A DNA stretch of 64,000 bases from Halobacteriales archaeon QS_4_69_31 (GTDB taxonomy: Archaea; Halobacteriota; Halobacteria; Halobacteriales; Haloarculaceae), in the NCBI GenBank assembly GCA_003021655.1, contig PXRP01000014.1, forward strand, positions 1 through 64,000. The letters run 5' to 3'. Positions within the stretch are counted from its first letter, which is position 1. Each line of letters begins with the position of its first letter. Of this stretch, positions 10,446 to 46,155 are shown piece by piece. The notes below the pieces were generated by a model. It was not told the DNA's origin, ran no database searches, and was given only the letters and a program-made list of their open reading frames with translations. A program made the position numbers and the translations under genes.

Positions 10446-10838
10446 ATGTGGGACGCCCGAAACTGTCCGGCCTGTCTCGTTCCAGTCCGTGTCCCGGCCA
10501 GTTCGAGGCGAGCCACAGGCCGCCGGTGGCTCACCGGGCGGAGTCGCTCGTGTCACGGACCGTCCCGCGGTCGCCGAGTCCTCCGCAGAGTCACTCGTGC
10601 GAGCGCGGGACACGAGGGCGGGATCGAAGTTCAGCTAATTTACTGCTTGGCTCTGCTAACAAGAATTTGATATTCGGGAGTCACGGAACGCGACGGGCGG
10701 GGACGGATGCCGGCCGGGACACGCGGCGCCCTCGGGGCCGCGCGTCCGGAGAAGCCCCGAACAGTCCGACCGGGGAAGGACGGCGGCCCCGAACCGTCCG
10801 CCCGCGGAGGAGAGCACGAAACCGTCGCCAGCGGGGAC

Positions 10839-10846
10839 TTATATAT
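10839..10846 (+). promoter_or_regulatory. TATA-like box in an AT-rich patch
   Basis: TTATATAT lies in a sharply AT-rich patch inside GC-rich DNA, 26-33 bases before an ATG at 10872. This is promoter spacing for a leaderless archaeal transcript. What it drives is uncertain. Confidence 0.4.
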
Positions 10847-10871
10847 CAGATTTTACAGTAAGAAAATATAT

Positions 10872-11066
10872 ATGTCACGGCACGACGGTCCGGACCGGCC
10901 GCGGGAGCGTTCGTGGCTCGCGAACGCCTGGAGGGCGGCGTCGGGCCGGGCGGGCCGGGCGTCACCGGCTAACGCGGGCGATCCCGGCCGCGGGACGCGG
11001 ACCGGGCCGTGGTCCACCCCGCACACTCCGGGCAAATGTGGCACACAGCCGCATGCATTACAGTGA
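10872..11066 (+). CDS. Possible small protein of 64 residues (weak)
   Basis: The frame MSRHDGPDRPRERSWLANAW... starts 26 bases after a TATA-like box. Its composition (Arg, Gly, Pro-rich, ending KCGTQPHALQ) is not like a folded haloarchaeal protein, and no domain is seen. It is listed only because of the promoter spacing; the transcript may instead be non-coding. Confidence 0.2.
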   Translation: MSRHDGPDRPRERSWLANAWRAASGRAGRASPANAGDPGRGTRTGPWSTPHTPGKCGTQPHALQ

Positions 11067-11222
11067 TACGACCGTAATCGAGATGGTCGGTGCGGTTCTC
11101 GCGAACGCGGGGAGTGCGGCCCGGAGAGCGGCCGCTGACCCCGGAGACGCCGCCTGTATCGCCGGCGAGTCCGCCGAATCGGGGCAAGTGTCGTTCGTCG
11201 CTCTCGAACGCGGCGCGTCGGC

Positions 11223-11987
11223 TCAGGAGAACTGGCTGTTTATCTCGATGACGTTGGCCGAGCGGGTCACCATCTCGGGGACCTCCTCGCGGAAGAACTC
11301 CCCCACCATCCGCCGGGAGGGTGCCGTGACGCTCACGGCGCCGAGGACGTCGTCACCGTTCTGGATCGGGGCGGCGACACACCGCACCCCCTCGATCCGC
11401 TCCTCGTTGTCGAAGGCGTACCCCTGGTCGCGGACGGTCGCAAGTTCCTCGTGGAGCCTGTCGCGGGCGGTGGTCGTCCGGTCGGTGAACGCGGGCAGGC
11501 CGTGGCGGTCGACGATCTCGTCGACCCGCTCGTCGGGCATCTGCGAGAGCATCGCCTTCCCGAGCGCGATACAGTGCATGTACTCGTGGGCGCCGACCGA
11601 CGACCCCGTCTGGACCGCCCGCTCGCCGCCCGTCTTGCAGAGGTAGACCGCCTTCCCGTGTTCTTCGACCGCAAACTGCGCGAGTTCGCCGCTCTCCTCG
11701 GCGAGGTCCTCGAGTTCCTCCTCGGCGGCGCCGTAGACCCCGAGCCTGTCGACGGCCGTGTTCGCGAGGTCGAAGTACCGGAGGCTCAGGTGGTAGGTCC
11801 CGTCCTCTTTCACCAGGTAGCCGTTGTCCAGCAGCGTCGTCAGGTGGCCGTGGACCGTCCCCTTCGAGTGGCCGAGGGCCTCCGCGAGCTCCGTCACACC
11901 GGCCCCGTCGTGCGCTTTCAGGTACTCGATGACCGCCAGCGTGATCTCGACCGCCTGCACTCGCCGGGACGCACCCCGATTTGCCAT
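11223..11987 (-). CDS. IclR-family transcriptional regulator (left regulator)
   Basis: A 254-residue protein. The N-terminal winged helix is at about 10-70 (VTELAEALGHSKGTVHGHLTTL is its helix-turn-helix region). The C-terminal IclR effector domain is at about 80-250, with CIALGKAMLSQMPDERVDEI and RGYAFDNEE-like (QGYAFDNEE) consensus stretches. IclR regulators respond to small carboxylates or sugar acids and usually control the neighbouring operon. It is divergent from the ThDP enzyme gene at 12223 and shares a 235-bp control region with it. A minus-strand TATA-like element at 12010-12018 supports the ATG at 11987. Confidence 0.92.
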   Translation of the reverse strand: MANRGASRRVQAVEITLAVIEYLKAHDGAGVTELAEALGHSKGTVHGHLTTLLDNGYLVKEDGTYHLSLRYFDLANTAVDRLGVYGAAEEELEDLAEESGELAQFAVEEHGKAVYLCKTGGERAVQTGSSVGAHEYMHCIALGKAMLSQMPDERVDEIVDRHGLPAFTDRTTTARDRLHEELATVRDQGYAFDNEERIEGVRCVAAPIQNGDDVLGAVSVTAPSRRMVGEFFREEVPEMVTRSANVIEINSQFS

Positions 11988-12009
11988 ACGATACCTGTGC
12001 ACGCGAAAT

Positions 12010-12018
12010 CTAATAACT
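12010..12018 (-). promoter_or_regulatory. TATA-like element of the left IclR gene
   Basis: On the minus strand AGTTATTAG lies about 23-31 bases before the start at 11987, consistent with a leaderless transcript. Confidence 0.45.
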
Positions 12019-12076
12019 GTTCGCATCTCCCAAACGGAATATCCGGACGAGCGCAATATCGAGTTTCGCCGGCGTT

Positions 12077-12099
12077 CCCGTTCGTACCTCGCGAACGGG
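12077..12099. promoter_or_regulatory. Inverted repeat, candidate IclR operator
   Basis: CCCGTTCG, seven bases, CGAACGGG: a perfect 8-bp dyad in the middle of the divergent control region. Its core TTCG-N7-CGAA (12081-12095) recurs three times upstream of the second IclR gene (47741, 48011, 48093). The shared spacing suggests one regulator type recognising both places; this is inferred. Confidence 0.5.
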
Positions 12100-12184
12100 T
12101 GTGACACGTCGCCGGCGGGTGCGAGATTCCCCAAACCGGGGCCGCCGGCAGGACGTCCGACGTATCACGCCCGGATCACCACAA

Positions 12185-12191
12185 TGTTTAT
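12185..12191 (+). promoter_or_regulatory. TATA-like element of the ThDP enzyme operon
   Basis: GTTTATT lies 32-38 bases before the ATG at 12223. A dyad at 12197-12221 covers the expected transcription start. Confidence 0.4.
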
Positions 12192-12196
12192 TCGCC

Positions 12197-12221
12197 GTTC
12201 GGCACACAGTAGCACACGAAC
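12197..12221. promoter_or_regulatory. GTTCG-N15-CGAAC dyad at the ThDP gene start
   Basis: Inverted half-sites GTTCG and CGAAC are separated by 15 bases and end two bases before the start codon. The left part TTCGGCACACA is identical to the beginning of the site at 48093, which has a 7-base spacer. It could be a variant operator in position to repress. Confidence 0.35.
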
Positions 12222-12222
12222 C

Positions 12223-13959
12223 ATGCCGCGACTGACTGGTGGCGAGATCATCGCCAGATATCTCGAAAAGGAGGGGGTCGAGTACCTGGTAGGCATCCCC
12301 GGTCACGGGAGTACGAACATCCTGGACGCGTTCAACGACTCGGACGTGGAGGTCATCCAGCCCCGCCACGAGCAGGGGGCCGCGCACCTCGCGGACGGGT
12401 ACGCGCGGGCCAGCGGCGAGCCGATGGCCGTGTTCACGTCGATCGGACCCGGGGCGACCAACACCGTCACCGGCGTCGCGACGGCCTACGTCGATTCGAT
12501 CCCGATGGTCGTGTTCACCGGCGCGCCCCAGACCCACGAGTACGGCCAGGGGATCCTCCAGGAGATCGAACGCCAGAAGCCCGGCGACTTCCCGAGCGTG
12601 ATGGAGCCCGTGACCAAACAGAGTTTCGAGGTCTCGGACGTCGAGATGCTGCCGCGGGTCCTCCGGCGCGCGTTCCAGGTCGCGCTGTCGGGCCGGCCGG
12701 GTCCGGTGCACATCGACGTGCCGATGGACGTCCAGGGCGCGGTCGCGGACGTCGAGATCCCCGAGCCGACGGCCCACCGGCCACACAGCCGGCCGGGCGG
12801 CGACCCGGAGACAGTGGCCGAGGCCGCGGAACTGCTCGCGGAGGCCGACCGGCCGGTGATCGTCCCCGGCGGCGGGACCATGCTCGCCGAGGCGTGGGAC
12901 GAGGTGCTCGAACTGGCCGAACACCTGAAGGCGCCGGTCAGTCCGACCTTCCAGGCGAAGGGTATCGTCCCCGAGGACCACGACCTGTTCGTGGGGTACG
13001 CCGGCTGGATCGGGACGACGGCGGGCAACGAACTCGCGTCGAACGCCGACGTGGTCCTGGCCATCGGCTGCCGGTTCACCGACATGCACACCTCGTCGTT
13101 CGAGCCCGGCGTGAGCTTCGAGATCCCGTCGAGCAAGCTCATCCACGTGGACATCGACCCCGAGGAGGTCGGCAAGAACTACCCGGTCGAGGTCGGCATC
13201 CAGGGCGACGCGAAGGTCGTCACCCGCCAGATCTACGAGGAACTGGCCGCGCGGACCGACCCCGTCGGGACCGAGGACAACGACTACTACGAGGAGGTCC
13301 AGCGGCTGTGGGACGAGTGGGAACAGCGCGTCGAGGAGTACGTCACCGACGACGTGCCCATGAGCATGGCGCGGGTGCTGGTCAGCCTGCGGGAGGTGCT
13401 CCCCCGCGAGGGGGTCGTCGTCTCCAGCGCCGGCCAGCCCCAGGAGACGACCAACCCGCAGTTCCCGGTCTACGAGCCCCGGACCAACGTCTCGTGTGGC
13501 GGGTTCTCGACGATGGGCTTTGGCGTCTCGGCGGCCATCGGCGCGAAACTCGCCCGCCCGGACCGCCCCGTCGTCGACGTCGAGGGCGACGGGAGTTTCC
13601 TGATGTGCAACCAGGAGGTCGCCTGTGCGGTCGAACACGACGTCGACGTCACCTACCTCGTGTTGAACAACCACGGCTGGAAATCCATCCGGAACCTCCA
13701 GGTCGACAAGTACGGCTGGGACCGCGTGCTGAACACGCCGTTCGACGAGGAGACCGATGTGAACTACATGGACATGGCCGACGCGTTCAACGTCGGCTAC
13801 GCCGAGCGCGTCGTCAAACCCGAGAACCTGGAGGCGACCCTGAGCGAGGCCATCGCCCACGACGGCCCCGCGATGGTCGAGGCGATCGTCGAACCCGACA
13901 ACCCCGACTCCGGCGCGATCATCACCGGCAAGTGGGACCTCGCGGACCTCCAGGAGTGA
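12223..13959 (+). CDS. Thiamine-diphosphate-dependent enzyme, acetolactate-synthase/IolD-like
   Basis: A 578-residue protein with the three ThDP-enzyme domains: N-terminal Pyr domain (1-170), central domain (about 195-330) and C-terminal PP domain (about 370-560). The cofactor-activating glutamate is in QPRHEQGAAH (E50). The Mg/ThDP motif runs from EGDGSFLMCNQE to LNNHGWKSIRN. Glu50 separates it from glyoxylate carboligase. Candidate activities are C-C bond cleavage or ligation of a 2-oxo compound, or cyclic-diketone hydrolysis as in IolD; exact chemistry is not readable. The next gene is an IolA/MmsA-like dehydrogenase, 63 bp away and probably co-transcribed. An in-frame upstream start at 11824 is rejected because it crosses the regulator gene. 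Confidence 0.88.
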   Translation: MPRLTGGEIIARYLEKEGVEYLVGIPGHGSTNILDAFNDSDVEVIQPRHEQGAAHLADGYARASGEPMAVFTSIGPGATNTVTGVATAYVDSIPMVVFTGAPQTHEYGQGILQEIERQKPGDFPSVMEPVTKQSFEVSDVEMLPRVLRRAFQVALSGRPGPVHIDVPMDVQGAVADVEIPEPTAHRPHSRPGGDPETVAEAAELLAEADRPVIVPGGGTMLAEAWDEVLELAEHLKAPVSPTFQAKGIVPEDHDLFVGYAGWIGTTAGNELASNADVVLAIGCRFTDMHTSSFEPGVSFEIPSSKLIHVDIDPEEVGKNYPVEVGIQGDAKVVTRQIYEELAARTDPVGTEDNDYYEEVQRLWDEWEQRVEEYVTDDVPMSMARVLVSLREVLPREGVVVSSAGQPQETTNPQFPVYEPRTNVSCGGFSTMGFGVSAAIGAKLARPDRPVVDVEGDGSFLMCNQEVACAVEHDVDVTYLVLNNHGWKSIRNLQVDKYGWDRVLNTPFDEETDVNYMDMADAFNVGYAERVVKPENLEATLSEAIAHDGPAMVEAIVEPDNPDSGAIITGKWDLADLQE

Positions 13960-14022
13960 CCGGGGTCGGGTGGATGCCCGCGACGTAACACATTTGTGGC
14001 TCCGGGGAGTGGGTCCGGATGT

Positions 14023-15522
14023 ATGACGAGCAGACAAGAGCACCAGGTAGAGCCACCAGCACTGCCGGACACGGTCCGCAACTACGTCGACGGCGAGTGG
14101 GTGGCCGGCGAGGGCGACCGGGTCGACCCGGTCGTGAACCCGGCGACCGGGGCGGAACTCGCGTCGGTGCCGTACGCGAGCGCGGCGGACGTCGACGCGG
14201 CCGTCGCGGCCGCCCGCGAGGCCTTCGACGACTGGCGGGCGACTCCCGCGGTCGACCGCGCCCAGTACCTCTTTGACCTGAAGGCGGAACTCGACGACCG
14301 CCAGGAAGAGATCGCACAGGCACTCACGCGCGAACACGGCAAGACGCTCGAGGAGGCACGCGGCGAGATCCGCCGCGGGATCGAGAACGTCGAGGTCGCG
14401 GCCGGGGCCCCGAACATGCTCCGGGAGGGCAGCGGCGTCGTCGAGGACGTCGCGCCGGGCATGGACGAGTCCGCGATTCGCCAGCCCCTGGGCGTGTTCG
14501 CCGCCATCACGCCGTTTAACTTCCCGGCGATGATCCCGCTGTGGTTCCTCCCGTACGCGGTCGCGACGGGCAACACCTTCGTCCTCAAGCCCAGCGAGAA
14601 GGTGCCCCTGAGCGCAGGACTTATTCTCGAGGCGGTCGAGGCCGTCGGCTTCCCCGACGGGGTGGTCACCCTCGTCAACGGCGGCGCCGACACCGTGGAC
14701 GCGTTGCTCGAACACGAGGACATCGTGGGCGTCTCGTTCGTCGGGTCGACGCCGGTCGCCCGGCACGTCTACGAGACCGCCGCCGCCCACGGCAAGCGGG
14801 TCCAGGCCCAGGGCGGCGCGAAAAACTACGTCGTCGTCACGGAGTCGGCCGCACTCGAGGAGGCGGTGCCCAACATCGTCGGGTCGGTGTACGGCAACGC
14901 CGGCCAGCGCTGTCTCGCCAACGACGTGGTCGTCGGCGTCGGCGACTGCTACGACGACCTGCGCGCGGACCTGCTGGACGCCGTCGACGAGATCACCGTC
15001 GGTAACGGTCTCGACGAGGGGACCGACGTCACCCCGCTGATCACGCCGGACTCGCGGGACCGCGTCGCGGGGATGATAGCCGACGCCGTCGAGGAGGGTG
15101 CGGACCTGGTCGTCGACGGCCGCGACTTCGAGCACCCCGACTATCCCGACGGGAACTTCATGGGCCCGACCGTCCTGGAGGGCGTCACGACCGGCATGAC
15201 GATCGCCCAGGAGGAGGTCTTCGGCCCGGTGCTGTGTCTGGCCCGGGCCGAAGACCTCGACGAGGCCATCGGGATGGTCAACAGCACCGAGTACGGCAAC
15301 GCCTCGTCGGTCTTCACCGAGCGCGGCGCCGAGGCACGCCGCTACCGCCGCGAGGTCGACGCCGGGAACATCGGCGTCAACGTCGGCGTCTGTGCCCCGA
15401 TGGGCTTTTTCCACTTCGGCGGCCGCAAGGGCTCGTTTTTCGGTGATACCCACGCCCAGGGCGAGGACGCCGTCCACTTCTACACCGAGAAGACCATCGA
15501 GATAGAACGCTGGTACAGCTAG
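14023..15522 (+). CDS. mmsA: CoA-acylating methylmalonate-semialdehyde-type dehydrogenase
   Basis: A 499-residue aldehyde dehydrogenase. ITPFNFPAMIPLWFLPYA is diagnostic of the MmsA/IolA branch, and the catalytic Cys lies in NAGQRCLAND. GFFHFGGRKGSFFGD is the conserved C-terminal stretch. This branch oxidises malonate or methylmalonate semialdehyde to acetyl- or propionyl-CoA with decarboxylation, using NAD and CoA. Adjacent to an IolD-like ThDP enzyme, it would be the terminal step turning a C3 semialdehyde into acyl-CoA. The ATG at 14023 is preferred over an upstream one at 13996, giving a normal family N-terminus. Confidence 0.9.
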   Translation: MTSRQEHQVEPPALPDTVRNYVDGEWVAGEGDRVDPVVNPATGAELASVPYASAADVDAAVAAAREAFDDWRATPAVDRAQYLFDLKAELDDRQEEIAQALTREHGKTLEEARGEIRRGIENVEVAAGAPNMLREGSGVVEDVAPGMDESAIRQPLGVFAAITPFNFPAMIPLWFLPYAVATGNTFVLKPSEKVPLSAGLILEAVEAVGFPDGVVTLVNGGADTVDALLEHEDIVGVSFVGSTPVARHVYETAAAHGKRVQAQGGAKNYVVVTESAALEEAVPNIVGSVYGNAGQRCLANDVVVGVGDCYDDLRADLLDAVDEITVGNGLDEGTDVTPLITPDSRDRVAGMIADAVEEGADLVVDGRDFEHPDYPDGNFMGPTVLEGVTTGMTIAQEEVFGPVLCLARAEDLDEAIGMVNSTEYGNASSVFTERGAEARRYRREVDAGNIGVNVGVCAPMGFFHFGGRKGSFFGDTHAQGEDAVHFYTEKTIEIERWYS

Positions 15523-15555
15523 CGAGACGCGCCGGGGCCGGCCCGCGTCGTCGGT

Positions 15556-15686
15556 CCCGCCCGGCCGAGGACACCGCCGCGAGGGGCGTCTCCGGTGACA
15601 CCACCCGTCAGTCCTGCTCGGCCGAGGACACTGCCGCGAAGGGCGTCTCCGGTGACACCACCCGTCAGTCCTGCTCGGCCGAGGAC
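15556..15686. repeat. 57-bp tandem repeat duplicating a gene's 3' end
   Basis: Two full 57-bp copies (15556-15612, 15613-15669) and a partial third (15670-15686) abut. The unit contains the last codons and stop of the aldolase gene, so minus-strand AEQD-stop is followed by degenerate copies of the same end. The copies differ by a few substitutions. Confidence 0.85.
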
Positions 15687-16462
15687 GCCTCGGTGAGGGC
15701 GGCGTCGTAGCGGTCGATGACGTCCTCGATGCCGTCCATGAGCAGGGAGGTGTCCTTGCCGGCGATGAGGAAATCGAACCCCTGTTCGAGGTGCGCGTCG
15801 ATGGCCGCGGTGTCGGTCGTCAGCGTCCCGACGGGCGTCCCGGCGGCGTGGCCGGCTTCGAGGACCCGGTCGAGGTGGGCCTCGAACTCGGGGGACTGCC
15901 ACTCCCCGAACATATCGAGCGCGCCAGACAGGTCCGCGGGGCCGACGAACAGCGCGTCGATCCCGTCGACGCCGGCGATCTCGCGGGCGTTCTCCAGGCC
16001 CTGTCGCGTCTCGATCTGGGCGATTGTGAGGATCGTCCCGTTGGCGTTCGCGACGTAGCTCTCGAACTCCCGGCCGTAGGTGGTGGCGCGGCCCGACGCG
16101 ATCCCCCGGTCCCCATCGGGAGGGTACCTGAGCGACCGGACGAGGTCCTCGGCCTCGCTCCCGGTCTCTATCATCGGGACCATCACGCCGGCGACGCCGA
16201 TGTCGAGGACGCGTTTCAGCCGGACGGGGTCGTTCCACGGGACGCGGACGACCGTCTCCGTCGAGTCCGAGGCGGCCTCGACCCCGCGTTGCATCTCCTC
16301 GACGGTCTCCAGGCTCGTCGTCGTGTGCTCGGTGTCGAGGAGGACGAAATCGAGGTCCAGCGTCGCGGTCGCCTCCGCGACGACCGGGTGGCCGATCGAT
16401 ATCCACGTGCCCAGCGGGTGGTCCCACGATGCGAGCTTCTCCTTGAGTGTCGGTTCCATCAT
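15665..16462 (-). CDS. HpcH/HpaI-family class II aldolase (2-keto-3-deoxy sugar acid type)
   Basis: A 265-residue TIM-barrel aldolase. Seen are catalytic His in LLDTEHTTT (H46), Arg in VRVPW, metal-binding Glu in AQIET (E151), and Asp in VGPADLSG (D177). This is the pattern of HpaI, GarL and RhmA, which cleave 2-keto-3-deoxy acids to pyruvate plus an aldehyde with a divalent metal. It sits convergent to the ThDP-MmsA pair and divergent from a galactonate-dehydratase-like enolase, whose product would be its natural substrate. Two adjacent start codons (MM) lie at 16462; the first is used. Its 3' end is duplicated in a tandem repeat. Confidence 0.9.
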   Translation of the reverse strand: MMEPTLKEKLASWDHPLGTWISIGHPVVAEATATLDLDFVLLDTEHTTTSLETVEEMQRGVEAASDSTETVVRVPWNDPVRLKRVLDIGVAGVMVPMIETGSEAEDLVRSLRYPPDGDRGIASGRATTYGREFESYVANANGTILTIAQIETRQGLENAREIAGVDGIDALFVGPADLSGALDMFGEWQSPEFEAHLDRVLEAGHAAGTPVGTLTTDTAAIDAHLEQGFDFLIAGKDTSLLMDGIEDVIDRYDAALTEASSAEQD

Positions 16463-16685
16463 GGTGACTGGCACCGAGCGCAGGTCGTTTGGTTGCCGTA
16501 CATACGCGACCGTCTCAGTCCGTCGTTCGTCCGATAGATTGTGCTACCGATATTAATTATTTGGGGGTGACGGGGCACTCCATCGCGGGCGCCGACGGGC
16601 GTGCGTTCGGACCCGTGACCGTCCGCCACCGGCCACCCTGCGACCGGCGGTCGGACCCGTCCGTTCCCGGCCACGGGACGGCCGG

Positions 16686-16694
16686 AACATATAA
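16686..16694 (+). promoter_or_regulatory. TATA-like element of the enolase operon
   Basis: AACATATAA lies about 56-64 bases before the ATG at 16750, leaving a leader of about 30 bases with a strong Shine-Dalgarno GGAGGTGA seven bases before the start. This is a leadered transcript, unlike many neighbours. Confidence 0.45.
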
Positions 16695-16749
16695 CAGCGG
16701 TCCGGCCCACCCACCGACAACCGGACGAACGCAACGCGGAGGTGACACC

Positions 16750-17982
16750 ATGTACGAGGACTTCGCGTCGAAGCTCGCCGCGACGATGTGGGCGGACTTC
16801 GACACGACACCGAGCCGCACCGACGGCCAGCTGGCCGCGATCACCGGCGTCGACACGCTCGTCGTCGACGGGAACTTCCCGTGGACGCTCGTGACCGTCG
16901 AGACAGACGCCGGCGTGACGGGGGTCGGCGAGGCCTACCCCTCGCCGGGCGTCCACGAGATCATCACCGACTACCTCGAACCCGTACTCGTCGGCGAGAA
17001 CCCGGCCGACGTCGAACGGCTGTACAACCTCATGCGCGAGAGCCTCTCGGGGCGTGGCTCACAGTGGGGCGTCGGCACCATCGCGATTTCGGGCGTCGAG
17101 ATCGCCCTCTGGGACGCGACCGGCAAACTCCTCGACCAGCCGGTCTACCAGTTGCTCGGCGGCAAGACCCGCGAGAGCGTGCGGGTGTACGCCGACTGCC
17201 ACGCCGGCGAGGCGATGGTCGCCTCCGCCGAGGCGGGTCAGGAGGCGGCGACCTACGAGCCCGAGGCCTACGCGCGGGCGGCCCGCGAGGCCGTCGACGA
17301 GGGGTTCGACATCGTCAAGTTCGACCTCGACGTCCCCTCGGGGGGCGAGAGAGAGACGCTGTCGCGTCACCTCGACGGGCCGGAACTCGACCACAAGGAG
17401 CGTATCGTCGCGGCCGTGACCGACGCGGTCGGCGACGACGCCGAGGTGGGGGTCGACCTGCACTGGAACTTCAGCCCCGAGACCGCCGAGCGCCTCTGTG
17501 AGGCCGTCGAGCCCTACGGCCTCGCGTGGGTCGAGGACCCGATCCCGCCCGAGAACACCGACGCGATGCGGGAACTGCGACGCCGGGTCGAGGTCCCGCT
17601 GTTGACCGGCGAGAACCGCTACGGCCGCCACGGCTTCCGCGACCTGGTCGAGACGCAGGCCGTCGACTTCCTCGCGCCCGACGTGCCAAAGACCGGCGGC
17701 ATCGCCGAGACAAAGAAGGTCGCCGACCTCGCGGCGGCGTACTACCAGCCGCTGGTCCCGCACAACGTCGGCAGTCCCGTCGCGACGGTCGCGACCGCCC
17801 ACGTCGGCGCGACGGTCCCCAACTTCGTCGCCCTCGAGTACCACGCCCGCGAGGTGCCGTGGTGGGAGGACTTGGTCGTCGGCGACGACCTCATCCGGGA
17901 CGGCGCCATCGACGTCCCCGACGGGCCGGGACTGGGTGTCGAACTCGACTGGGACGTCGTCGAGACTCACGAAAAGTCATAA
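16750..17982 (+). CDS. Enolase-superfamily sugar-acid dehydratase, galactonate-dehydratase-like
   Basis: A 410-residue protein. The N-terminal capping domain (1-150) is followed by the barrel. Metal ligands are D236 (VDLHWNF), E262 (WVEDPIPPEN) and E288 (TGENRYG). H238 in a D-x-H motif and H338 (PHNVGSP) with D311 match the acid/base pair of D-galactonate dehydratase. K190 lies in DIVKFDLDV; the second Lys of the usual KxK is absent. It should dehydrate an aldonate to a 2-keto-3-deoxyaldonate. It is divergent from the HpcH/HpaI aldolase and followed 25 bp later by a zinc dehydrogenase. A GGAGGTGA ribosome site fixes the start, against a frame open from 16489. Confidence 0.88.
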   Translation: MYEDFASKLAATMWADFDTTPSRTDGQLAAITGVDTLVVDGNFPWTLVTVETDAGVTGVGEAYPSPGVHEIITDYLEPVLVGENPADVERLYNLMRESLSGRGSQWGVGTIAISGVEIALWDATGKLLDQPVYQLLGGKTRESVRVYADCHAGEAMVASAEAGQEAATYEPEAYARAAREAVDEGFDIVKFDLDVPSGGERETLSRHLDGPELDHKERIVAAVTDAVGDDAEVGVDLHWNFSPETAERLCEAVEPYGLAWVEDPIPPENTDAMRELRRRVEVPLLTGENRYGRHGFRDLVETQAVDFLAPDVPKTGGIAETKKVADLAAAYYQPLVPHNVGSPVATVATAHVGATVPNFVALEYHAREVPWWEDLVVGDDLIRDGAIDVPDGPGLGVELDWDVVETHEKS

Positions 17983-18007
17983 GTGGGCGCGTGGCGACGC
18001 TCCCGCC

Positions 18008-19162
18008 ATGCGAGCCCTCGTACTCGACGCGGAGTGGGACCCGCGAGCGGGGTACGACCCGAGCGAGGCCGACGCCGAGAGCAGGCGCGCGACCGACAGC
18101 GGGTCGGTCTGGCGCGACCCACGACTCCGCCTCGAGGAGCGCGACCGGCCCGAGCCCGGCCCCCACGAAGCCCTCGTGAAAGTCCGGTACGCCGGCGTCT
18201 GTGGCAGCGACGTCGCGATGATAGAGACCGACGACGAGGGGTACATGCACTACCCGGCGTACACGGCGCTGCCGAACGTCCTCGGCCACGAGTTCTCGGG
18301 CGAGGTCGTCGAGACCGGGGCCGAGACCACACGCGTCGAGCCCGGCGACCTCGTGACCGCCGAGGTGACCGACTACTGTGGCCGGTGTGAGGCCTGCCGG
18401 CGGGGCTTTCCCGGCCACTGTGACAACTTCGAACAGCTCGGGTTCACGGTCCCCGGGGCCTTCGCCGAGTACGTCGCCGTGCCCGAGAAACTCCTCTGGG
18501 ACGTCTCGCCGCTGGCGGCGGTCCACGACGCACGAGAGGGGGTCCTCCGGGCCGCCGCGACCATCGAGCCGAGCACGATCACCTACCACGGCCTGTTCGG
18601 GCGGGCCGAGGGGATCCGGCCGGGCGACTACTACGCGTTCCACGGCGCCGGCCCAATCGGGCTGACGGGGATGAACGTGGCGCGGGCGGCCGGGGCCGGG
18701 GCGGTCCTGGCCTTCGAGCCCGCGGAGCCGCGCCGGGCGGTCGCCCGGGAGTTGGGGTTCGAACACGTCTTCGACCCGACCGAGACGCCGCCGGCCGAGG
18801 CCGTCGCGGCGGTCACCGACGGGGCGGGCGTCGACGTCCACGTCGAGACTGCGGGGGCCGTCGAACAGACCTACCCCGCGATCGGGGCGACGCTCGCCGA
18901 GGGCGCCAACGTCGTCCACATCAGCAACGCCGCCGAGCCCGCACCCGTGGACACGCGCCAGTACCAGGGCAACGCCGCCCAGGTATACGGCGCCGAGGGC
19001 CACACCGGCGACCGCATCTACCCGGGCGTCATCCGCCTCATGGCCGCCGGCCACCTCGACAACACCGGGATCGTCACCTCGACGTTCGACCTGTCGGACG
19101 CCCCGGAGGCGGTCCGGCAGGCGAAACGGCGCGTCGACGGGAAGGTCACGGTCGAAATCTGA
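18008..19162 (+). CDS. Zinc-dependent medium-chain alcohol/polyol dehydrogenase
   Basis: A 384-residue MDR protein. Catalytic zinc ligands are C65 (GVCGSD), H94 and E95 (GHEFSG). The structural zinc site is C124, C127, C130 and C138 (DYCGRCEACRRGFPGHC). The nucleotide fold has HGAGPIGLTG at about 215. This family includes threonine, sorbitol, galactitol and glucose dehydrogenases, and IolM of the Thermotoga inositol pathway. Here it should oxidise a hydroxyl of the imported polyol or sugar acid with NAD(P). It lies directly after the dehydratase and before the RbsC-type importer genes, probably in one operon. Confidence 0.9.
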   Translation: MRALVLDAEWDPRAGYDPSEADAESRRATDSGSVWRDPRLRLEERDRPEPGPHEALVKVRYAGVCGSDVAMIETDDEGYMHYPAYTALPNVLGHEFSGEVVETGAETTRVEPGDLVTAEVTDYCGRCEACRRGFPGHCDNFEQLGFTVPGAFAEYVAVPEKLLWDVSPLAAVHDAREGVLRAAATIEPSTITYHGLFGRAEGIRPGDYYAFHGAGPIGLTGMNVARAAGAGAVLAFEPAEPRRAVARELGFEHVFDPTETPPAEAVAAVTDGAGVDVHVETAGAVEQTYPAIGATLAEGANVVHISNAAEPAPVDTRQYQGNAAQVYGAEGHTGDRIYPGVIRLMAAGHLDNTGIVTSTFDLSDAPEAVRQAKRRVDGKVTVEI

Positions 19163-19246
19163 GAGTACCGCTCTCGCGGCCGGACGCGTGGGATCTGGAC
19201 GGACGTCCGCAAGTTTTTTCAAGAGTCCGAATCACGTTGTGTGCGT

Positions 19247-20260
19247 ATGGCTACCACAGACGCACGGCGGAGTCGAGGAGTCCTCGGGTCGGTGGTCGAG
19301 CGGGCCAAGCAGATCCTCGGCCGTAATCCGGAGCTGGCAGCGGTAATCACGTTCCTGGCGGTGACGGCGTTTTTCGTCTTCCTGGCGCCGGGGACGATGA
19401 CCGAGCCGGCCATCTGGGGAGACATCTTCAGGCAGACCGCGCTGATAGGGACGGTGGCCATCCTGGTTTCGATGCTGATGATCGCCGGGGACTTCGATAT
19501 GACCGTCGGGGCGAACTACGCCTTCTCGGCGATGATCTTCCTCTGGACGATAAACGCGGGGTTCAACCCGCTGGTGGCGGCCGGTGCGGCCATCCTGTTC
19601 GGGTTGACCGTCGGGTTCGTCAACGGCGTGCTCGTCACGTGGACGGGGATCCACTCGTTTATCATCACGCTCGGTGGCATGTTCGCGCTCCGGGGGATCG
19701 TCCTGCTGGTCAGCGGCGGGACCTACGTCACGCTGGAGCGCGAACCCGAGTTGCTGGCGATATTCAGCATGGAACTGGGCAACCAGTTCTCGGTCGCCGT
19801 CGTGTGGATGTTCGTCGTGCTGGCGCTGATCGGCTTCATCACCCACCGACACCCGTTCGGCAACCACCTGTACGCGGTCGGCAACGACAGGGACACAGCG
19901 CGCGGGCGCGGCATCCGCGTGACGCGTTCCCGGATCATCGCGTTCATGATGACGGCTGCGGCGGCGTCGTTCGCGGGCGTGCTCGTCGCGTCGCGGTTCG
20001 GGTCGGTCCAGGCGTCGCTGGGCGAGCAGATGCCCCTGGTCGCCATCGCGGCGGCGGTGCTGGGCGGGTGTGCCCTGTTCGGCGGCGAGGGGAGCCCCAT
20101 CGCGGGCTTTCTCGGCGCGCTGACCTTCGGCGTTTTCCAGGTCGGGCTCACGGCGATCGGTGCGGAGACGTTCTGGTTCCGGACCTTCGTCGGGCTCATC
20201 CTGATCGTGGCAGTCATCCTGAACCGACAGATCCGCAACCTCCCGATCCAAGCAAACTGA
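19247..20260 (+). CDS. RbsC-type ABC sugar/polyol transporter permease
   Basis: A 337-residue membrane protein with eight to ten helices. The cytoplasmic-loop pattern (GNDRDTARGRGIRVTRSR, then AAVLGGCALFGGEGSPIAG) is that of BPD_transp_2 permeases such as RbsC, XylH and InoG. It would form the channel of an importer with the ATPase at 20271 and the binding protein at 21204. The ATG at 19247 is two codons inside a GTG alternative at 19241. Confidence 0.9.
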   Translation: MATTDARRSRGVLGSVVERAKQILGRNPELAAVITFLAVTAFFVFLAPGTMTEPAIWGDIFRQTALIGTVAILVSMLMIAGDFDMTVGANYAFSAMIFLWTINAGFNPLVAAGAAILFGLTVGFVNGVLVTWTGIHSFIITLGGMFALRGIVLLVSGGTYVTLEREPELLAIFSMELGNQFSVAVVWMFVVLALIGFITHRHPFGNHLYAVGNDRDTARGRGIRVTRSRIIAFMMTAAAASFAGVLVASRFGSVQASLGEQMPLVAIAAAVLGGCALFGGEGSPIAGFLGALTFGVFQVGLTAIGAETFWFRTFVGLILIVAVILNRQIRNLPIQAN

Positions 20261-20270
20261 GGTGACACCG

Positions 20271-21086
20271 ATGAGTACGGACAAACCACTGCTCGAAGTC
20301 GAGAACCTGCACAAACACTTCGGGTCGATCCGCGCACTGGACGGCATGGACCTCCGTGTCAACGAACAGGAGATACTGGGACTGGTCGGCGACAACGGCG
20401 CCGGCAAGAGCACCCTGATCAAGTGTCTCGTCGGCTACCACCAGCCCGACGCCGGCGAGCTCGACTGGAAGGGCGAACGGGTCAACTTCCAGAACCCCGA
20501 CGAGGCCCTCGACGCGGGGATCCGCGTCGTCTACCAGGACATCGGCCTCGCGGACACGATAAGCGTCGCCCGGAACCTCTTCATCGGCAGCGAACCGACC
20601 AAAAACGGGCGCCTCGACATGAAAAAGATGCACCGCGAGGCCGAGAAGGTCCTCGACGACATCGGGCTGAAGTCGCTGAGCGACCCGACACTGCCCGTCG
20701 AGAACCTCTCTGGCGGGGAACAACAGAGCGTCAAGATCGGCCGCGCGCTGTACTTCGACGCCGACCTGCTCGTCCTCGACGAACCCCTCCGGGCGCTCTC
20801 GGTCAAGGAAGGCGAGAAGGTCCTCCGGACCCTCAAACGCACCAAAGAGCAGGGCGTCTCGATGATCTACATCACGCACAACATCTTCCACGCCTACGAA
20901 GTGGCCGACCGCTTCCAGCTGATCGACAACGGACACAACGCCGGCGAGTTCGAGAAAGACGAGCTTGACGGCCCACAACAGCTGGTCGAATCGCTGAAGT
21001 ACGTCGCCGGGGGCGGCGACCTCGAAGACGCGGACGAACCCGGACCCGTCGAGGAGGAGACCGACGTCGCCGACAGCGCGTCGTGA
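20271..21086 (+). CDS. ABC transporter ATPase, single-domain RbsA/FrcA type
   Basis: A 271-residue ATPase. Walker A is GDNGAGKST, the signature LSGGEQQSVKIGRAL and Walker B LLVLDEPL. Only one ATP-binding domain is present, as in FrcA/XylG-half forms, so it should work as a homodimer instead of the fused RbsA type. The start is 10 bp after the permease stop, with GAGGTGA just upstream. The conserved DEPTAALS is DEPLRALS here, a minor change next to the D-loop. The C-terminal tail is acidic. Confidence 0.92.
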   Translation: MSTDKPLLEVENLHKHFGSIRALDGMDLRVNEQEILGLVGDNGAGKSTLIKCLVGYHQPDAGELDWKGERVNFQNPDEALDAGIRVVYQDIGLADTISVARNLFIGSEPTKNGRLDMKKMHREAEKVLDDIGLKSLSDPTLPVENLSGGEQQSVKIGRALYFDADLLVLDEPLRALSVKEGEKVLRTLKRTKEQGVSMIYITHNIFHAYEVADRFQLIDNGHNAGEFEKDELDGPQQLVESLKYVAGGGDLEDADEPGPVEEETDVADSAS

Positions 21087-21163
21087 CCGCCCGCCGCTTT
21101 GTCCCGACCCCACTCTCGCTCTCTCGCCCGCTCGCGCGCCGGCGCCCGTTCCCACACCGCCGA

Positions 21164-21173
21164 AATATTTATG
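21164..21173 (+). promoter_or_regulatory. TATA box of the binding-protein gene
   Basis: AATATTTATG lies 31-40 bases before the ATG at 21204. An extra promoter here would allow the binding protein to be made in excess over the membrane parts, as is common. Confidence 0.55.
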
Positions 21174-21203
21174 TGGAGTGTGATTATTAATCGTGCATGT
21201 ACT

Positions 21204-22322
21204 ATGAGCGGCAAGCGAATCGAAGGTATGAAGCAGGCACGCTCTGGCATACAGGTATCCAGGCGAGAGGTCATCGCGACGTCGGGCACCGCCGGTCTGG
21301 TTGGGTTGGCCGGCTGTGGTGGGAGTGACGGCACCGGCGGCGACGGTGGCGGTGACGGCGACGGCGGCGGTGACGGCGACGGCGGCGGAACCCAGGGGTC
21401 AGTCGACACCGACGCCACACAGGAGGATTTCACCATCACGTTCATCCCCCACTCGAGCGGGGCGTCGGACCCGTTCTGGGCGATCGAAGAGAAGGGGTGG
21501 AGTGCCGCGGTCGACCAGCTCAGCGTCGAGGGGCAGTTCCAGGGCCCGACGGAGTTCGACCCACAGCAGCAGGTCCAGAACATCAACTCGGCCATCTCGT
21601 CGGGGGTGGACGGCATCGCCACCTCCATCTCCGACCCGGACCTGTTCGACGACCCGCTCCAGCGGGCCCAGGAGGAGGGGATCCCGGTCATCGCGGTCAA
21701 CATCCCCGAGTTCGGCGAGCGGACGCTCCCCTATCAGGGGTACGTCGGCAACGACGAGACCGTCGTCGGTAACGAAGTGGCCTCGAACGCGCTCGAAGAC
21801 TTCCAGGAGGCCACTGGCGAGATGCCAGCACGCGCCGTGATCCCGAACCACCAGCCCGGGAACACCGTCCTCGGGTTGCGGTCGGACGGGATCAAGGAAG
21901 TGATGAGCAACAACAACATTTCGGTCGACGAGATCGCCACGTCCTCGGACCCCAGCGAGAACATCAGCTCCCTGTCGAGCTACCGGTCGTCGAACAGCGA
22001 CGTCGACATCGTGTGTTCGCTCGGCCCCGCGTCGGGCGAGCCCGCGATCCAGTGGATCAACGAGAACGACCTCCAGGGCGAGGTGTACGTCGCCGGGGTC
22101 GACATCACGGAGAAGATCCAGCAGGCCATCGAGAACGGGGTCTACTTCGGGACGGTCATCCAGCAGCCGTACCTCCAGGGGTACCTGGCCGCCCACTACC
22201 TGGCACAGAAGCTCGTCAACGGCATCCTCGCGCCGACCGTGACGCCGACCGGGCCGACCTGGATCGACGACACGCGGCTGGACCTGGTCCGGACGCAGAT
22301 CCAAAACACCGGCGGCGCCTGA
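21204..22322 (+). CDS. RbsB-type sugar/polyol-binding lipoprotein
   Basis: A 372-residue protein. A Tat motif (SRREVIATSG) and lipobox LAGC are followed by a Gly/Asp repeat linker of about 30 residues. The mature part is a periplasmic-binding-protein type 1 fold (Peripla_BP_4): FIPHSSGASDPFWAIEEKGW, AISSGVDGIATSISDPDL, and YVAGVDITEKIQQAIENGVY. It should capture the substrate outside the cell for the permease/ATPase pair upstream. Ligand cannot be assigned; relatives bind ribose, xylose, inositol or erythritol-like polyols. Confidence 0.9.
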   Translation: MSGKRIEGMKQARSGIQVSRREVIATSGTAGLVGLAGCGGSDGTGGDGGGDGDGGGDGDGGGTQGSVDTDATQEDFTITFIPHSSGASDPFWAIEEKGWSAAVDQLSVEGQFQGPTEFDPQQQVQNINSAISSGVDGIATSISDPDLFDDPLQRAQEEGIPVIAVNIPEFGERTLPYQGYVGNDETVVGNEVASNALEDFQEATGEMPARAVIPNHQPGNTVLGLRSDGIKEVMSNNNISVDEIATSSDPSENISSLSSYRSSNSDVDIVCSLGPASGEPAIQWINENDLQGEVYVAGVDITEKIQQAIENGVYFGTVIQQPYLQGYLAAHYLAQKLVNGILAPTVTPTGPTWIDDTRLDLVRTQIQNTGGA

Positions 22323-22348
22323 GACCGCCGCGCCGAGTCCGGCGGTTC

Positions 22349-22442
22349 CCACGTACGGGCCGCCCTCGCTCCGTCCTCTCACCGTCTCCCCGGCCCCCAC
22401 GTACGGACCGCCGTCTCCGTCCTCTCACCGTCTCCCCGGCCC
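22349..22442. repeat. Tandem duplication, two copies of about 47 bp
   Basis: A unit beginning CCACGTACGG and ending in CACCGTCTCCCCGGCCC occurs at 22349 and again at 22397, with one short length difference. It lies between the ends of the binding-protein gene and the convergent isomerase gene and has no coding role. Confidence 0.75.
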
Positions 22443-22478
22443 GGGTGCCGGCGCGAGGACCGGCCCCGCGAGCGACGG

Positions 22479-23297
22479 TCAGCGGCCGCCGGTGACCGCC
22501 TCCCAGTACGCTTTGTTCTCCTTGGCGTGGACCAGCAGTTTCTCGGTCCGGTTCTCGACCTCGACGGTGTAGTGGCCGTCGTAGCCGGCCGCCGCCAGCG
22601 CCCCGTGGACCGCCGCGAAATCGAGGACGCCCTCGCCCAGGTCGGTGAACGACCGGAAGTAGTTGATGACGTTGTCGAGGTGGGGCCGTCCCCCGGAGAG
22701 GGCGTCGCGGTTCGCGGCGAAATCGGCGGTCGGCGCGACGTCCTTGAGGTGGACGTAGGCGATGTCGTCGCCGAACCGCTCGACGGCGTCGGTGACGTCG
22801 CCCTCGGGGTAGTGCTCCCCGTAGGGGTACCAGTGGGCAGTGTCGAAGAGGAGTTCGAGGCCGTCGACGGCCGCCAGGAACCGGTCGACCTCGTCCGGGC
22901 GTTCGACGTGGGTGCCGCCGTGGTGGTGGAGGACGGGGGTAAGGCCCGCCTCACGGGCCGCGTCGGCGACGGTCGCGAACCGCTCCCGGACGGTGTCGTC
23001 GTCGTTGCGGTGGCGCTGGGGCGGCAGGAGGCCGAGGAACTCCGCCCCGAGGTCGGCGACCGTTCCCGCCGCGTCGGCGACGTCGCGGGCGTCGGCGTCG
23101 GTTTCGAGCCAGTCGCCCATCACGCAGTACAGCTCCAGCCCGTGGGTGTCGAGCCACTCGGCGACCGCCCCGGGACCGACCGCCCGCACCTTGCCGAGAC
23201 CGACCTCGACTCCGTCGTACCGGCACGCGCCCACGTCCGCGATGCCGGTTTCGAGCCGTTCCGCGTCGTACATGAGTGTCGTGTACCCGAGACCCAT
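22479..23297 (-). CDS. Sugar-phosphate isomerase/epimerase-fold TIM barrel (IolE/IolO-like)
   Basis: A 272-residue AP-endonuclease-2-type barrel. Likely metal ligands are in LHHHGGTHVE (E132), FDTAHW (D152, H155), YVHLKD (H183) and YTVEVEN. The family includes inosose dehydratase IolE, the Thermotoga epimerase IolO, xylose-isomerase-like and hydroxypyruvate-isomerase-like enzymes. Next to an RbsBCA importer and a Gfo/Idh dehydrogenase it may isomerise or dehydrate a keto-polyol; this is inferred. It is divergent from the LLM oxidoreductase. The ATG at 23297 gives a normal first beta strand (MGLGYTTLMY). Confidence 0.85.
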   Translation of the reverse strand: MGLGYTTLMYDAERLETGIADVGACRYDGVEVGLGKVRAVGPGAVAEWLDTHGLELYCVMGDWLETDADARDVADAAGTVADLGAEFLGLLPPQRHRNDDDTVRERFATVADAAREAGLTPVLHHHGGTHVERPDEVDRFLAAVDGLELLFDTAHWYPYGEHYPEGDVTDAVERFGDDIAYVHLKDVAPTADFAANRDALSGGRPHLDNVINYFRSFTDLGEGVLDFAAVHGALAAAGYDGHYTVEVENRTEKLLVHAKENKAYWEAVTGGR

Positions 23298-23378
23298 ACG
23301 CCGTGGTTGGACGACGCCGATCAAATAGCTTCGGGTGGAACAACACTGAATAGCGACCGGTCACATGTTCTAGTCGAG

Positions 23379-24356
23379 ATGGTCAGCGTCGACTACATGG
23401 CTCACCAGGAGCAGTACAGCCCCTCGACGTTGCTCGACTACGCCGGCCGCGCCGAGCGGGCGGGCTACGAGTTCGTCTGGACGTCGGACCACTTCCACCC
23501 GTGGTTCCACACGGGCGGGGAGGCGGGCTTCGCGTGGTCGTGGCTCGGCGCCGCGACCCAGCGGACGGACCTGCCGGTCGGGACCTACGTCACCCCCGCC
23601 GCCCAGCACTACCACCCGGGGCGGATCGCACAGGCGTTCGCGACCGTCGGCGAGATGCACGACGAGCGGGTCGTCCTCGGACTGTCGACCGGCGAGGCGA
23701 TGAACGAGAAACCGCTGGGCCAGCCCTGGGACGAGTACCCCGTCCGGCGGGACCGCCTCGAAGAGACCCTCGAAATCGTGCGGGAACTGTACGACAGCGA
23801 CGGGTTCGTCAGCTACGACGGCGAGCACTTCTCGCTCGAGGACGCACACCTCTACACGATGCCCGAGGACCGTCCGGAGGTCCACGTCGCCGCCAACGGC
23901 CCGAGCACGGCGCGGCTGGCCGCGCGGTACGCCGACGGTTTCATGACCGTCATCACCGGCGAGGAGTTCACCGACCGGCTCTACCCCGCGGTGCGGTCCT
24001 ACGCCGAGGAGGAGGGTCGCGACCCCGACGCGCTCGAGACGACCGTGCTCGTCATCGTCTCGTACGACCCCGACTACGAGGCGGCCTTCGAGGCCACCCG
24101 GCCGTGGTGGGCGACCACCCAGGACGTCTTCGACCGGGCGGTCGCGGACCCCCGGGAGATCGAGGCGCTGGGCGAGGAGGCCACCCGCGAGGAGATAGAG
24201 GAGAAGTTCCTGGTCGCCGACGACCCCTCGACGGTCGCCGCGGAGGTCGAGCGCCTCGCCGAGATGGGCTTCGACAGGGTCGCGCTCGCCAACACCAGCC
24301 CCGCCCCCGAACGGCTGTTCGAGGTGATGGGCGACGAGGTCATTCCGTCGCTGTAA
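23379..24356 (+). CDS. LLM-class flavin/F420-dependent oxidoreductase
   Basis: A 325-residue luciferase-like monooxygenase-fold protein. FVWTSDHFHPW near residue 35, GTYVTPAAQHYHPGRIAQ and LGLSTGEAMNE match the F420-dependent glucose-6-phosphate dehydrogenase (FGD) subgroup. Members of this subgroup oxidise a sugar hydroxyl or aldehyde with F420, which haloarchaea make. A very long frame open from 22527 is a shadow of the opposite gene; the ATG at 23379 is the family-like start. It shares an 81-bp divergent promoter with the isomerase. Confidence 0.87.
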   Translation: MVSVDYMAHQEQYSPSTLLDYAGRAERAGYEFVWTSDHFHPWFHTGGEAGFAWSWLGAATQRTDLPVGTYVTPAAQHYHPGRIAQAFATVGEMHDERVVLGLSTGEAMNEKPLGQPWDEYPVRRDRLEETLEIVRELYDSDGFVSYDGEHFSLEDAHLYTMPEDRPEVHVAANGPSTARLAARYADGFMTVITGEEFTDRLYPAVRSYAEEEGRDPDALETTVLVIVSYDPDYEAAFEATRPWWATTQDVFDRAVADPREIEALGEEATREEIEEKFLVADDPSTVAAEVERLAEMGFDRVALANTSPAPERLFEVMGDEVIPSL

Positions 24357-24378
24357 GGGCGCCGGCCCGCTCGCCGCC

Positions 24379-25449
24379 TCACCCGTCGGCGTCCCGGTAG
24401 TGTCTGAAGAGGTCGACGATGACGTCGAGGTCGTCGCGTGCCTCCGCGAACGGCGTCCGGACCGCGGCCTCGCCCTCGATACACCGCAGGAAGTGTGCCA
24501 GTTCGCGCTTGAACGGCTCCTCGTAGGAGGGCGTCCGGACCGTCTCGGTCAGTTCCTCGCGCCCCCGCTTGACCCGGAGTTCCGTTGGCGCGTTCCTGAT
24601 GAATGGGTTCGAGAAGTCCACTGTCACCATCCCGTCGGGGCCGTCGACGCGGACGAACTCCTCGAACCACTTGCGGTCGGAGTCGCCGGTCTCCAGGACG
24701 CAGGTGACGCCGCCCTCGTAGGTGAGGTGGGCCGTCGCGTAGCGGCCGTCGGCGAACACGTCGACGTGGTCGACGCGCTCGACCGCGCCGAACAGCCCCC
24801 GCAGGACGTTGACGTCGTGACAGACGTGTTCGAGCTGGAAGTCGTAGGCGTCGACGAGGCGGTCGTCGTCGGTCCCGACCGCCTGCTCGATGTCGGCGCG
24901 CCGCCTGGCGGCGCTCTCCTCGAGGAACGACCCGGGCGGGTCCCCGGCCACCAGGTCGTAGACCTCGGTCACGACGCGCTCGTGGTCGGGGTCGACATCG
25001 TAGGCGGTGACTAGGTCGACCGCGTCCAGCTCCTCGACCGCCTCGCGTGCCCGCTCGTAGGCGGGGTCGTAGCGCTTCATGTACGCGACCATCGCGGTCG
25101 CGTCCGACGCGGCGTCGGCCTCGACCATCCGCTCGGCGTCCGCAGGCGTCGCCGCGATCGGCTTCTCGACGAGCGTGTGGACCCCGGCCCCGAGCGTGTC
25201 GACGACGACGTCGGCGTGTTCGTGTGACGGCGTGAGCACCACGACCGCGTCGAGGTCGTCGCCGGCGTCCGCGAGGAGCGACTCGTGGTCCGCGTACACG
25301 TTCGGGACGTTGTACCTGGCCGCGAGTTCGCCGGCCCGCCCCGTCGCGGGGTCGACGAGGGCGTGCAACTCCGCGTCGGGGAGTTCGGCGAGATACGGGA
25401 CGTGCATCACCTGTGCCACTAGCCCACAGCCGATGACTCCGAATCGCAT
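24379..25449 (-). CDS. Gfo/Idh/MocA-family NAD(P)-dependent sugar/polyol dehydrogenase
   Basis: A 356-residue two-domain oxidoreductase. The Rossmann motif is GVIGCG at the N-terminus. Catalytic-region EKP is at 95-97 (LVEKPIAA). The C-terminal domain has QLEHVCHDVNVLRGLFG, in which the His are typical of the substrate pocket. Family members oxidise myo-inositol (IolG), glucose or other cyclic polyols and sugars. The close set of RbsBCA importer, isomerase and this gene suggests the first oxidation step. Its promoter lies in the unusual T-rich intergenic region to the right. Confidence 0.9.
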   Translation of the reverse strand: MRFGVIGCGLVAQVMHVPYLAELPDAELHALVDPATGRAGELAARYNVPNVYADHESLLADAGDDLDAVVVLTPSHEHADVVVDTLGAGVHTLVEKPIAATPADAERMVEADAASDATAMVAYMKRYDPAYERAREAVEELDAVDLVTAYDVDPDHERVVTEVYDLVAGDPPGSFLEESAARRRADIEQAVGTDDDRLVDAYDFQLEHVCHDVNVLRGLFGAVERVDHVDVFADGRYATAHLTYEGGVTCVLETGDSDRKWFEEFVRVDGPDGMVTVDFSNPFIRNAPTELRVKRGREELTETVRTPSYEEPFKRELAHFLRCIEGEAAVRTPFAEARDDLDVIVDLFRHYRDADG

Positions 25450-31483: not shown

Positions 31484-31504
31484 ACGTAGACGTTGCCGCG
31501 TCAA

Positions 31505-45836: not shown

Positions 45837-45860
45837 CACGTTTTTGCGGTATGGATGACT

Positions 45861-45870
45861 ATTATAAATA
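45861..45870 (-). promoter_or_regulatory. TATA box of the MalE-type binding-protein gene
   Basis: Read on the minus strand, TATTTATAAT lies 25-34 bases before the ATG at 45836. Confidence 0.6.
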
Positions 45871-45964
45871 TTTTTTCCATATTTTCGGTTCATGAGGAGT
45901 ACGGCCCGGCGCCACACGGAGGTGCGGGCCCGGCGCCGAACGGCAGGACCGAGCGGGAGCGACA

Positions 45965-46070: not shown

Positions 46071-46114
46071 CGCCGCCGGTCGTCAGGACGCGACGGGTCC
46101 GGCGGGTGGATAGT

Positions 46115-46123
46115 TTTAATATA
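46115..46123 (+). promoter_or_regulatory. TATA box of the DXR-like/SAF oxidoreductase gene
   Basis: TTTAATATA lies 33-41 bases before the ATG at 46156. Confidence 0.5.
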
Positions 46124-46155
46124 CAGTCAGTGTAAGTCCCCTCTGGCGCGAAAGC

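Follow-up and report, generated by a model that had tools for sequence, protein, structure and literature searches.

A 64,000-nucleotide stretch of DNA from Halobacteriales archaeon QS_4_69_31 (GenBank assembly GCA_003021655.1, contig PXRP01000014.1, positions 1 to 64,000 of the forward strand; the whole stretch is hereafter called the window) carries, at 11.2-25.4 kb, twelve genes that probably form a cluster with which haloarchaea break down an inositol, either myo-inositol or one of its stereoisomers. In this reading, to which a rough probability of 0.57 is assigned from sequence comparisons, an upper half resembling the Iol enzymes of bacteria would feed a non-phosphorylative lower half. 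That the cluster serves the catabolism of some cyclic polyol is considered highly probable. All twelve genes are open frames with family-level matches, and the enzymes and importer listed in an earlier, letters-only reading of the window (the original prediction) were present where it had placed them; its list omitted the IclR regulator and the F420-dependent LLM enzyme, the latter a constant member of the cluster. The genes are as follows.

11223-11987, minus strand: IclR-family regulator, divergent from the cluster; NCBIfam matches of the IclR type, all below cut-off
12223-13959, plus strand: predicted ring-opening hydrolase, thiamine diphosphate (ThDP)-dependent and IolD-like, with TPP_enzyme N, M and C domains
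14023-15522, plus strand: CoA-acylating (methyl)malonate-semialdehyde dehydrogenase, MmsA/IolA-like (TIGR01722)
15665-16474, minus strand: HpaI-type aldolase with HpcH_HpaI domain, proposed 4-hydroxy-2-oxoadipate aldolase
16750-17982, plus strand: enolase-superfamily acid-sugar dehydratase with MR_MLE domains, proposed 5-deoxyglucarate dehydratase
18008-19162, plus strand: Zn-dehydrogenase, IolM (scyllo-inosose 3-dehydrogenase family, NF041097), accessory
19241-20260, plus strand: ABC permease, RbsC/LsrC-like (NCBIfam)
20274-21086, plus strand: single-domain sugar ABC ATPase (NCBIfam)
21204-22322, plus strand: sugar-binding lipoprotein, Peripla_BP_4; best NCBIfam model, rhizopine binding protein
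22479-23297, minus strand: TIM-barrel protein, predicted IolE-like inosose dehydratase; IolE is the sole NCBIfam match
about 23379-24356, plus strand: F420-dependent LLM-class dehydrogenase, proposed 5-deoxyglucuronate dehydrogenase (TIGR03557)
24379-25449, minus strand: Gfo/Idh/MocA dehydrogenase, IolG-like; relatives match the IolG model below cut-off

The cluster genes recur together, with differing gene order, in many genera. Across 392 Halobacteria genomes, IolM was found above the NCBI cut-off (NF041097) in 23 and the ThDP enzyme in 25 (threshold E < 1e-180), with both present in 22 genomes vs 1.5 expected (Fisher P ~1e-31, only a guide, since related genomes are not independent). IolM scores over these genomes were bimodal, either at least 522 bits or below 240 bits. 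For comparison of the neighbourhoods, window proteins were mapped onto slices of ~20-30 kb each, taken from 29 genomes besides that of the window. Genes for the ThDP and LLM enzymes were located in the same 25 slices, together with the enolase-superfamily and TIM-barrel genes (23 slices each), the IclR regulator (19), MmsA (18), and HpaI and Gfo (16 each); these counts are lower bounds because of the slice length, and because three further ThDP genes sit 11-17 kb from IolM. Identities across the haloarchaeal clusters were 80-86% for the ThDP protein, 74-86% for the enolase and 68-84% for the LLM protein. Since the enolase and HpaI genes are conserved together with the Iol-like genes across the slices, they belong with them, and the locus is one conserved cluster rather than the two coexisting branches that had been suggested for it. 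The accompanying clue of 2-keto-3-deoxy-acid cleavage was right, and is best placed as the lower half of an inositol route.

Beyond the shared genes, a further Gfo-type gene (Gfo2), an aldo/keto reductase (AKR) and a short-chain dehydrogenase (SDR) were found in many, not all, cluster genomes, a second TIM-barrel gene likewise occurred in many clusters, and the importer type varied between clusters. One genome (G328) holds IolM, Gfo and HpaI without a ThDP relative at E < 1e-180. The laboratory strain Haloferax volcanii seems to be without the cluster. Two Haloarcula species possess a second ThDP paralogue, 69% identical (10001-11809 in slices L069 and L070), whose neighbours are different, namely an ABC ATPase and an alcohol dehydrogenase, with HpaI and Gfo2 in one of the species.

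A reduced form of the cluster was found in three genomes of one genus (g5), among them Halomicrobium katesii. Here the genes TIM-Enol-Gfo-HpaI-MmsA-ThDP-LLM-IclR lie in one and the same order and adjoin a UgpC-type importer gene, and IolM was present above cut-off nowhere in the three genomes (best about 1e-40). Because the core is kept without it, IolM is regarded as accessory and the core as seven enzymes, on evidence from a single genus.

Of the upper-half enzymes, the Zn-dehydrogenase passed the curated IolM equivalog cut-off (538.7 vs 450 bits, NF041097) and is, by that measure, a member of the IolM family. In an alignment that included five IolDs and several further ThDP subfamilies, the ThDP protein has in common with the IolDs the motifs GHG, S[IV]GPG, LQ[EQ] and GFSxMG as well as a late LQ, which the other aligned subfamilies lack. 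In a 25-row tree with a small panel, the type of check that had been proposed for these proteins, it clustered with IolD and a homologue from Ensifer at support 97/94. A ThDP protein of Ensifer canadensis is plasmid-encoded (11956-13788 of slice L079), 45% identical and shares the GHG motif; its gene is surrounded by Gfo/Idh, GMC, histidinol-dehydrogenase-like and VOC genes.

The TIM-barrel protein had been described as IolE/IolO-like, of which the IolE part is supported. All 17 haloarchaeal relatives matched the IolE model (best 6e-26), as opposed to 8 of the 17 for IolO (best 5e-6), and the window protein itself gave no IolO match among the NCBIfam models. IolE ranked first in a PDB profile search (6e-13), and bacterial plasmid relatives carry the iolE annotation. 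At the strand end where most other aligned relatives have the epimerase Glu, IolE and the haloarchaeal proteins have His (HHH motif). The top fold match of a structural model of moderate confidence (pLDDT 69) was IolE 9zmw. Among the families compared, the protein is thus judged from its sequence to be nearest to IolE. For the Gfo/Idh protein, all 11 relatives examined matched IolG, each below cut-off, and the best solved relative was dehydrogenase 3ezy, which we take to be T. maritima TM0414 (IolG). Its structure prediction had a mean pLDDT of 65 with a poor C-terminal half, and no fold search was based on it.

In the lower half, the LLM protein passed the cut-off of the F420 subfamily TIGR03557 (232.2 vs 210.4 bits) and failed the equivalog cut-off for F420-dependent glucose-6-phosphate dehydrogenase (FGD; 203 vs 420 bits). 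It retains the presumably catalytic FGD residues His, Trp and Glu, and has Thr, Asp and Lys at FGD positions Lys198, Lys259 and Arg283, which we take to bind phosphate. With this Lys/Lys/Arg set replaced, a non-phosphorylated sugar-like substrate of the aldose type is expected. The enolase-superfamily protein carries the residues DLH...E...E...H, presumably those of the acid-sugar dehydratases of this superfamily; it stays below the galactonate dehydratase equivalog cut-off (213 vs 311 bits), and its best solved relative, 2qq6, has no stated function. The HpaI-type aldolase scored 190 bits with TIGR02311, below the equivalog cut-off of 368.8 and within the same superfamily, and 183 bits with the GarL model, close to the HpaI value; its best solved relatives are HHED aldolases. 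MmsA passed the cut-off for CoA-acylating methylmalonate-semialdehyde dehydrogenase (548.2 vs 448.5 bits, TIGR01722) and shares 45-47% identity with the MmsA proteins encoded in Azospirillum iol clusters. Compared with their counterparts in the iolCD cluster of Rhizobium indicum, the permease of the importer shows 35% identity and the ATPase 42%. The binding protein scored 144 bits with the rhizopine binding protein model (cut-off 420).

From these assignments a route can be proposed, for which we infer every substrate and product from the chemistry of the families. The Gfo/Idh enzyme would oxidize inositol to inosose, the IolE-like TIM-barrel enzyme would dehydrate inosose to 3D-(3,5/4)-trihydroxycyclohexane-1,2-dione, and the IolD-like ThDP enzyme would open the ring to yield 5-deoxy-glucuronate. 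These three steps would follow the established iol chemistry, in which inositol is converted by IolG, IolE and IolD via inosose and trihydroxycyclohexane-dione to 5-deoxyglucuronate (PMC8355322). The F420-dependent LLM enzyme would then oxidize the free aldehyde, present as hemiacetal, to 5-deoxy-glucarate (2,3,4-trihydroxyadipate), from which the enolase-superfamily enzyme would remove water to give 4-hydroxy-2-oxoadipate. This compound is the C6 homologue of the usual substrate of HpaI, one carbon shorter. Cleavage by the HpaI aldolase would release pyruvate and malonate semialdehyde, and MmsA would convert the latter to acetyl-CoA and CO2, the proposed aldolase product being the substrate expected for MmsA. 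Each of the seven core enzymes would thereby account for one step, with none left over. IolM, Gfo2, the AKR and the SDR would allow the entry of other inositol isomers, and the occurrence of the last three in many clusters suggests that several isomers are handled. The exact intermediates are rated slightly better than an even bet, and a complete phosphate-free archaeal inositol route, with F420-dependent oxidation of 5-deoxyglucuronate and passage via 5-deoxyglucarate and 4-hydroxy-2-oxoadipate to pyruvate and malonate semialdehyde, is given even odds.

The absence of IolB and IolC, as had been predicted for the locus, was confirmed in whole-genome searches of eight cluster genomes: IolB was found in none, with a model that detects the controls of B. 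subtilis, C. vibrioides and C. glutamicum, and IolC reached its cut-off in none (best 196 vs 300 bits). IolN was above cut-off in none of the eight either (best 105 vs 245 bits), a search in which only one control genome passes. The window genome (2.74 Mb in 60 contigs) is 82% complete; the other seven genomes agree on all three proteins.

Several results weigh against an inositol route as proposed. Three of the assignments lie well below the equivalog cut-offs, i.e. the ThDP protein for IolD (285 vs 715 bits, TIGR04377), the TIM-barrel protein for IolE (83.6 vs 290 bits, TIGR04379) and the Gfo/Idh protein for IolG (98 vs 355 bits, TIGR04380, N-terminal half only), and the best NCBIfam models for the ThDP protein are acetolactate synthases. 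The inositol-like character originally suggested is supported at the cut-off level for IolM, and for the other three as nearest resemblance to IolD, IolE and IolG. The reference panels of the trees were small and contained neither biosynthetic IlvB nor cyclohexane-1,2-dione hydrolase, and the TIM-barrel protein, which did join IolE in its tree, did so at a support of just 83/80. Sugar epimerases scored closely after IolE in the fold search, and given this small margin the TIM-barrel model is only mildly supportive. Just 3 of the 29 genomes have a relative of the binding protein in their cluster. Finally, IolM is kept in most cluster genomes and has no step in the seven-enzyme core route.

This retention of IolM, in 22 of the 25 ThDP genomes, would be explained if IolM made a vicinal diketone from inosose, which the ThDP enzyme would open to a hexuronate and the LLM enzyme oxidize to an aldarate; the enolase would then form 2-keto-3-deoxyglucarate, and a HpaI/GarL-like aldolase would cleave it to pyruvate and tartronate semialdehyde. 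The nearly equal GarL and HpaI scores of the aldolase, and the acid sugars that are substrates of enolase relatives, are in keeping with such a scheme. It is nevertheless judged unlikely, as it needs IolM, which the three genomes with the whole core lack, and gives neither the IolE-like protein nor the CoA-acylating MmsA a task. IolM above its cut-off and the relation of the Gfo/Idh protein to 3ezy also fit a pathway of the Thermotoga type, a variant named in the original prediction, in which IolM would be followed by hydrolysis to 5-keto-L-gluconate and IolO epimerization to tagaturonate, the ThDP enzyme taking the place of IolN. With IolN above cut-off in none of the eight genomes, a TIM-barrel protein closer to IolE than to the weakly matching IolO, and MmsA and the LLM enzyme unaccounted for, this route was set aside as very improbable.

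The same chemistry might instead act on a substrate other than myo-inositol, such as chiro- or scyllo-inositol, pinitol or a rhizopine-like amine. Because importers vary between clusters and the binding protein of the window is nearest to the rhizopine model, a different isomer or derivative is quite possible, and the additional Gfo2, AKR, SDR and second TIM-barrel genes in many clusters point the same way; the core enzymes, however, look like a general myo-inositol set, and an amine-handling gene is missing from the core, so that this alternative is given a small but real chance. Two unrelated adjacent pathways, one inositol-like and one for aldonates or 2-keto-3-deoxy acids, would suit the enolase and HpaI families, which are typical of aldonate and aldarate routes, and Natrialba magadii, in which a 72% identical enolase is located outside the cluster. 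That the same genes recur in many genera, their order differing and the ThDP gene always accompanied by the LLM gene, makes this explanation the most remote of those considered. An inositol route with a non-phosphorylative lower half is accordingly retained as the preferred reading.

Bacteria process 5-deoxyglucuronate further via IolB, IolC and IolJ. With the bacterial iol pathway (IolG-E-D-B-C-J-A of Bacillus subtilis, Klebsiella and Azospirillum), the archaeal cluster shares a dehydrogenase, an IolE-like dehydratase, an IolD-like ThDP hydrolase and a terminal MmsA/IolA, and malonate semialdehyde would again be the last intermediate, with the final step as in Bacillus. The bacterial pathway isomerizes, phosphorylates and cleaves to DHAP, whereas oxidation by the LLM enzyme, dehydration by the enolase and HpaI cleavage to pyruvate are proposed here, and the cluster genomes tested lack IolB and IolC above cut-off. 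The Thermotoga maritima pathway (IolG-M-N-O) is similar in its IolM, above the curated cut-off here, and its Gfo dehydrogenase, but differs in that the archaeal cluster has no IolN above cut-off, an IolE-like TIM-barrel protein, and an IolM that is dispensable in three genomes. Acid formation, enolase-superfamily dehydration to a 2-keto-3-deoxy acid and aldol cleavage to pyruvate are also features of the archaeal branched Entner-Doudoroff and Weimberg/Dahms-type routes; unlike in these non-phosphorylative sugar-acid routes, the substrate here would stem from the ring opening of a cyclic polyol and the oxidation would be F420-dependent. The haloarchaeal LLM protein resembles the F420-dependent glucose-6-phosphate dehydrogenase/Adf family in reaching the TIGR03557 cut-off and keeping the catalytic His/Trp/Glu, and departs from FGD in its phosphate-site residues and equivalog score. 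A plasmid of Pantoea sp. BRR-3P (NZ_CP155067) combines iolG, iolD and iolE with genes for a HpaI-type aldolase, an aldehyde dehydrogenase and an SDR, and neither iolB nor iolC occurs in the 22 kb that were read, which hints that a similar lower half is possible in bacteria; its proteins are, however, only ~27-36% identical to the haloarchaeal ones, and no LLM or enolase gene was seen there.

Adjoining the cluster, a sulfatase-family hydrolase is encoded at 8913-10445 (8.9 kb), and a DtnK-like four-carbon acid kinase beside a PdxA-family dehydrogenase (above the general PdxA cut-off) at 26372-28650 (26.4-28.7 kb). Neither the sulfatase nor the pair occurred in the cluster slices of the 29 other genomes; they therefore mark the cluster borders. 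A sulfoquinovose/sulfo-ED route, prompted by the sulfatase, and a threonate link via DtnK/PdxA were dropped for the same reason. Further along the window follow a nickel-pincer isomerase of group 22 (30167-31504; NF052515, 485 vs cut-off 400 bits) and a UgpC-type ABC ATPase (31724-32893). A solute-binding protein (44310-46070), a DRL_cat oxidoreductase that weakly matches a SAF domain (46156-47502) and a second IclR regulator (48140-48910) are possibly another sugar-acid locus (44310-48910). Three adjacent exported-looking proteins at 55919-60882 match LVIVD repeats.

The IolM gene is already annotated by the NCBI pipeline in several cluster genomes, so that its assignment alone is not new; the pathway is. 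A survey published in 2022, covering 1,511 genomes of archaea, concluded that the breakdown of inositol by iol clusters is so far restricted to bacteria; it mentions unproven homologues in the genomes of a few archaea, including two Halobacteriales (PMC9430895). Neither a report of archaeal inositol catabolism nor a published description of the 5-deoxyglucarate lower half was found in the open-licence literature, and subscription papers may hold one of the former. If the proposal is true, archaea would gain a testable inositol route despite the bacteria-only conclusion of the survey, and the use of 5-deoxyglucuronate without IolB, IolC and IolJ would be explained. The proposal further offers candidate substrates for the haloarchaeal enolase, LLM, HpaI and ThDP families, and points to F420 taking part in catabolism.

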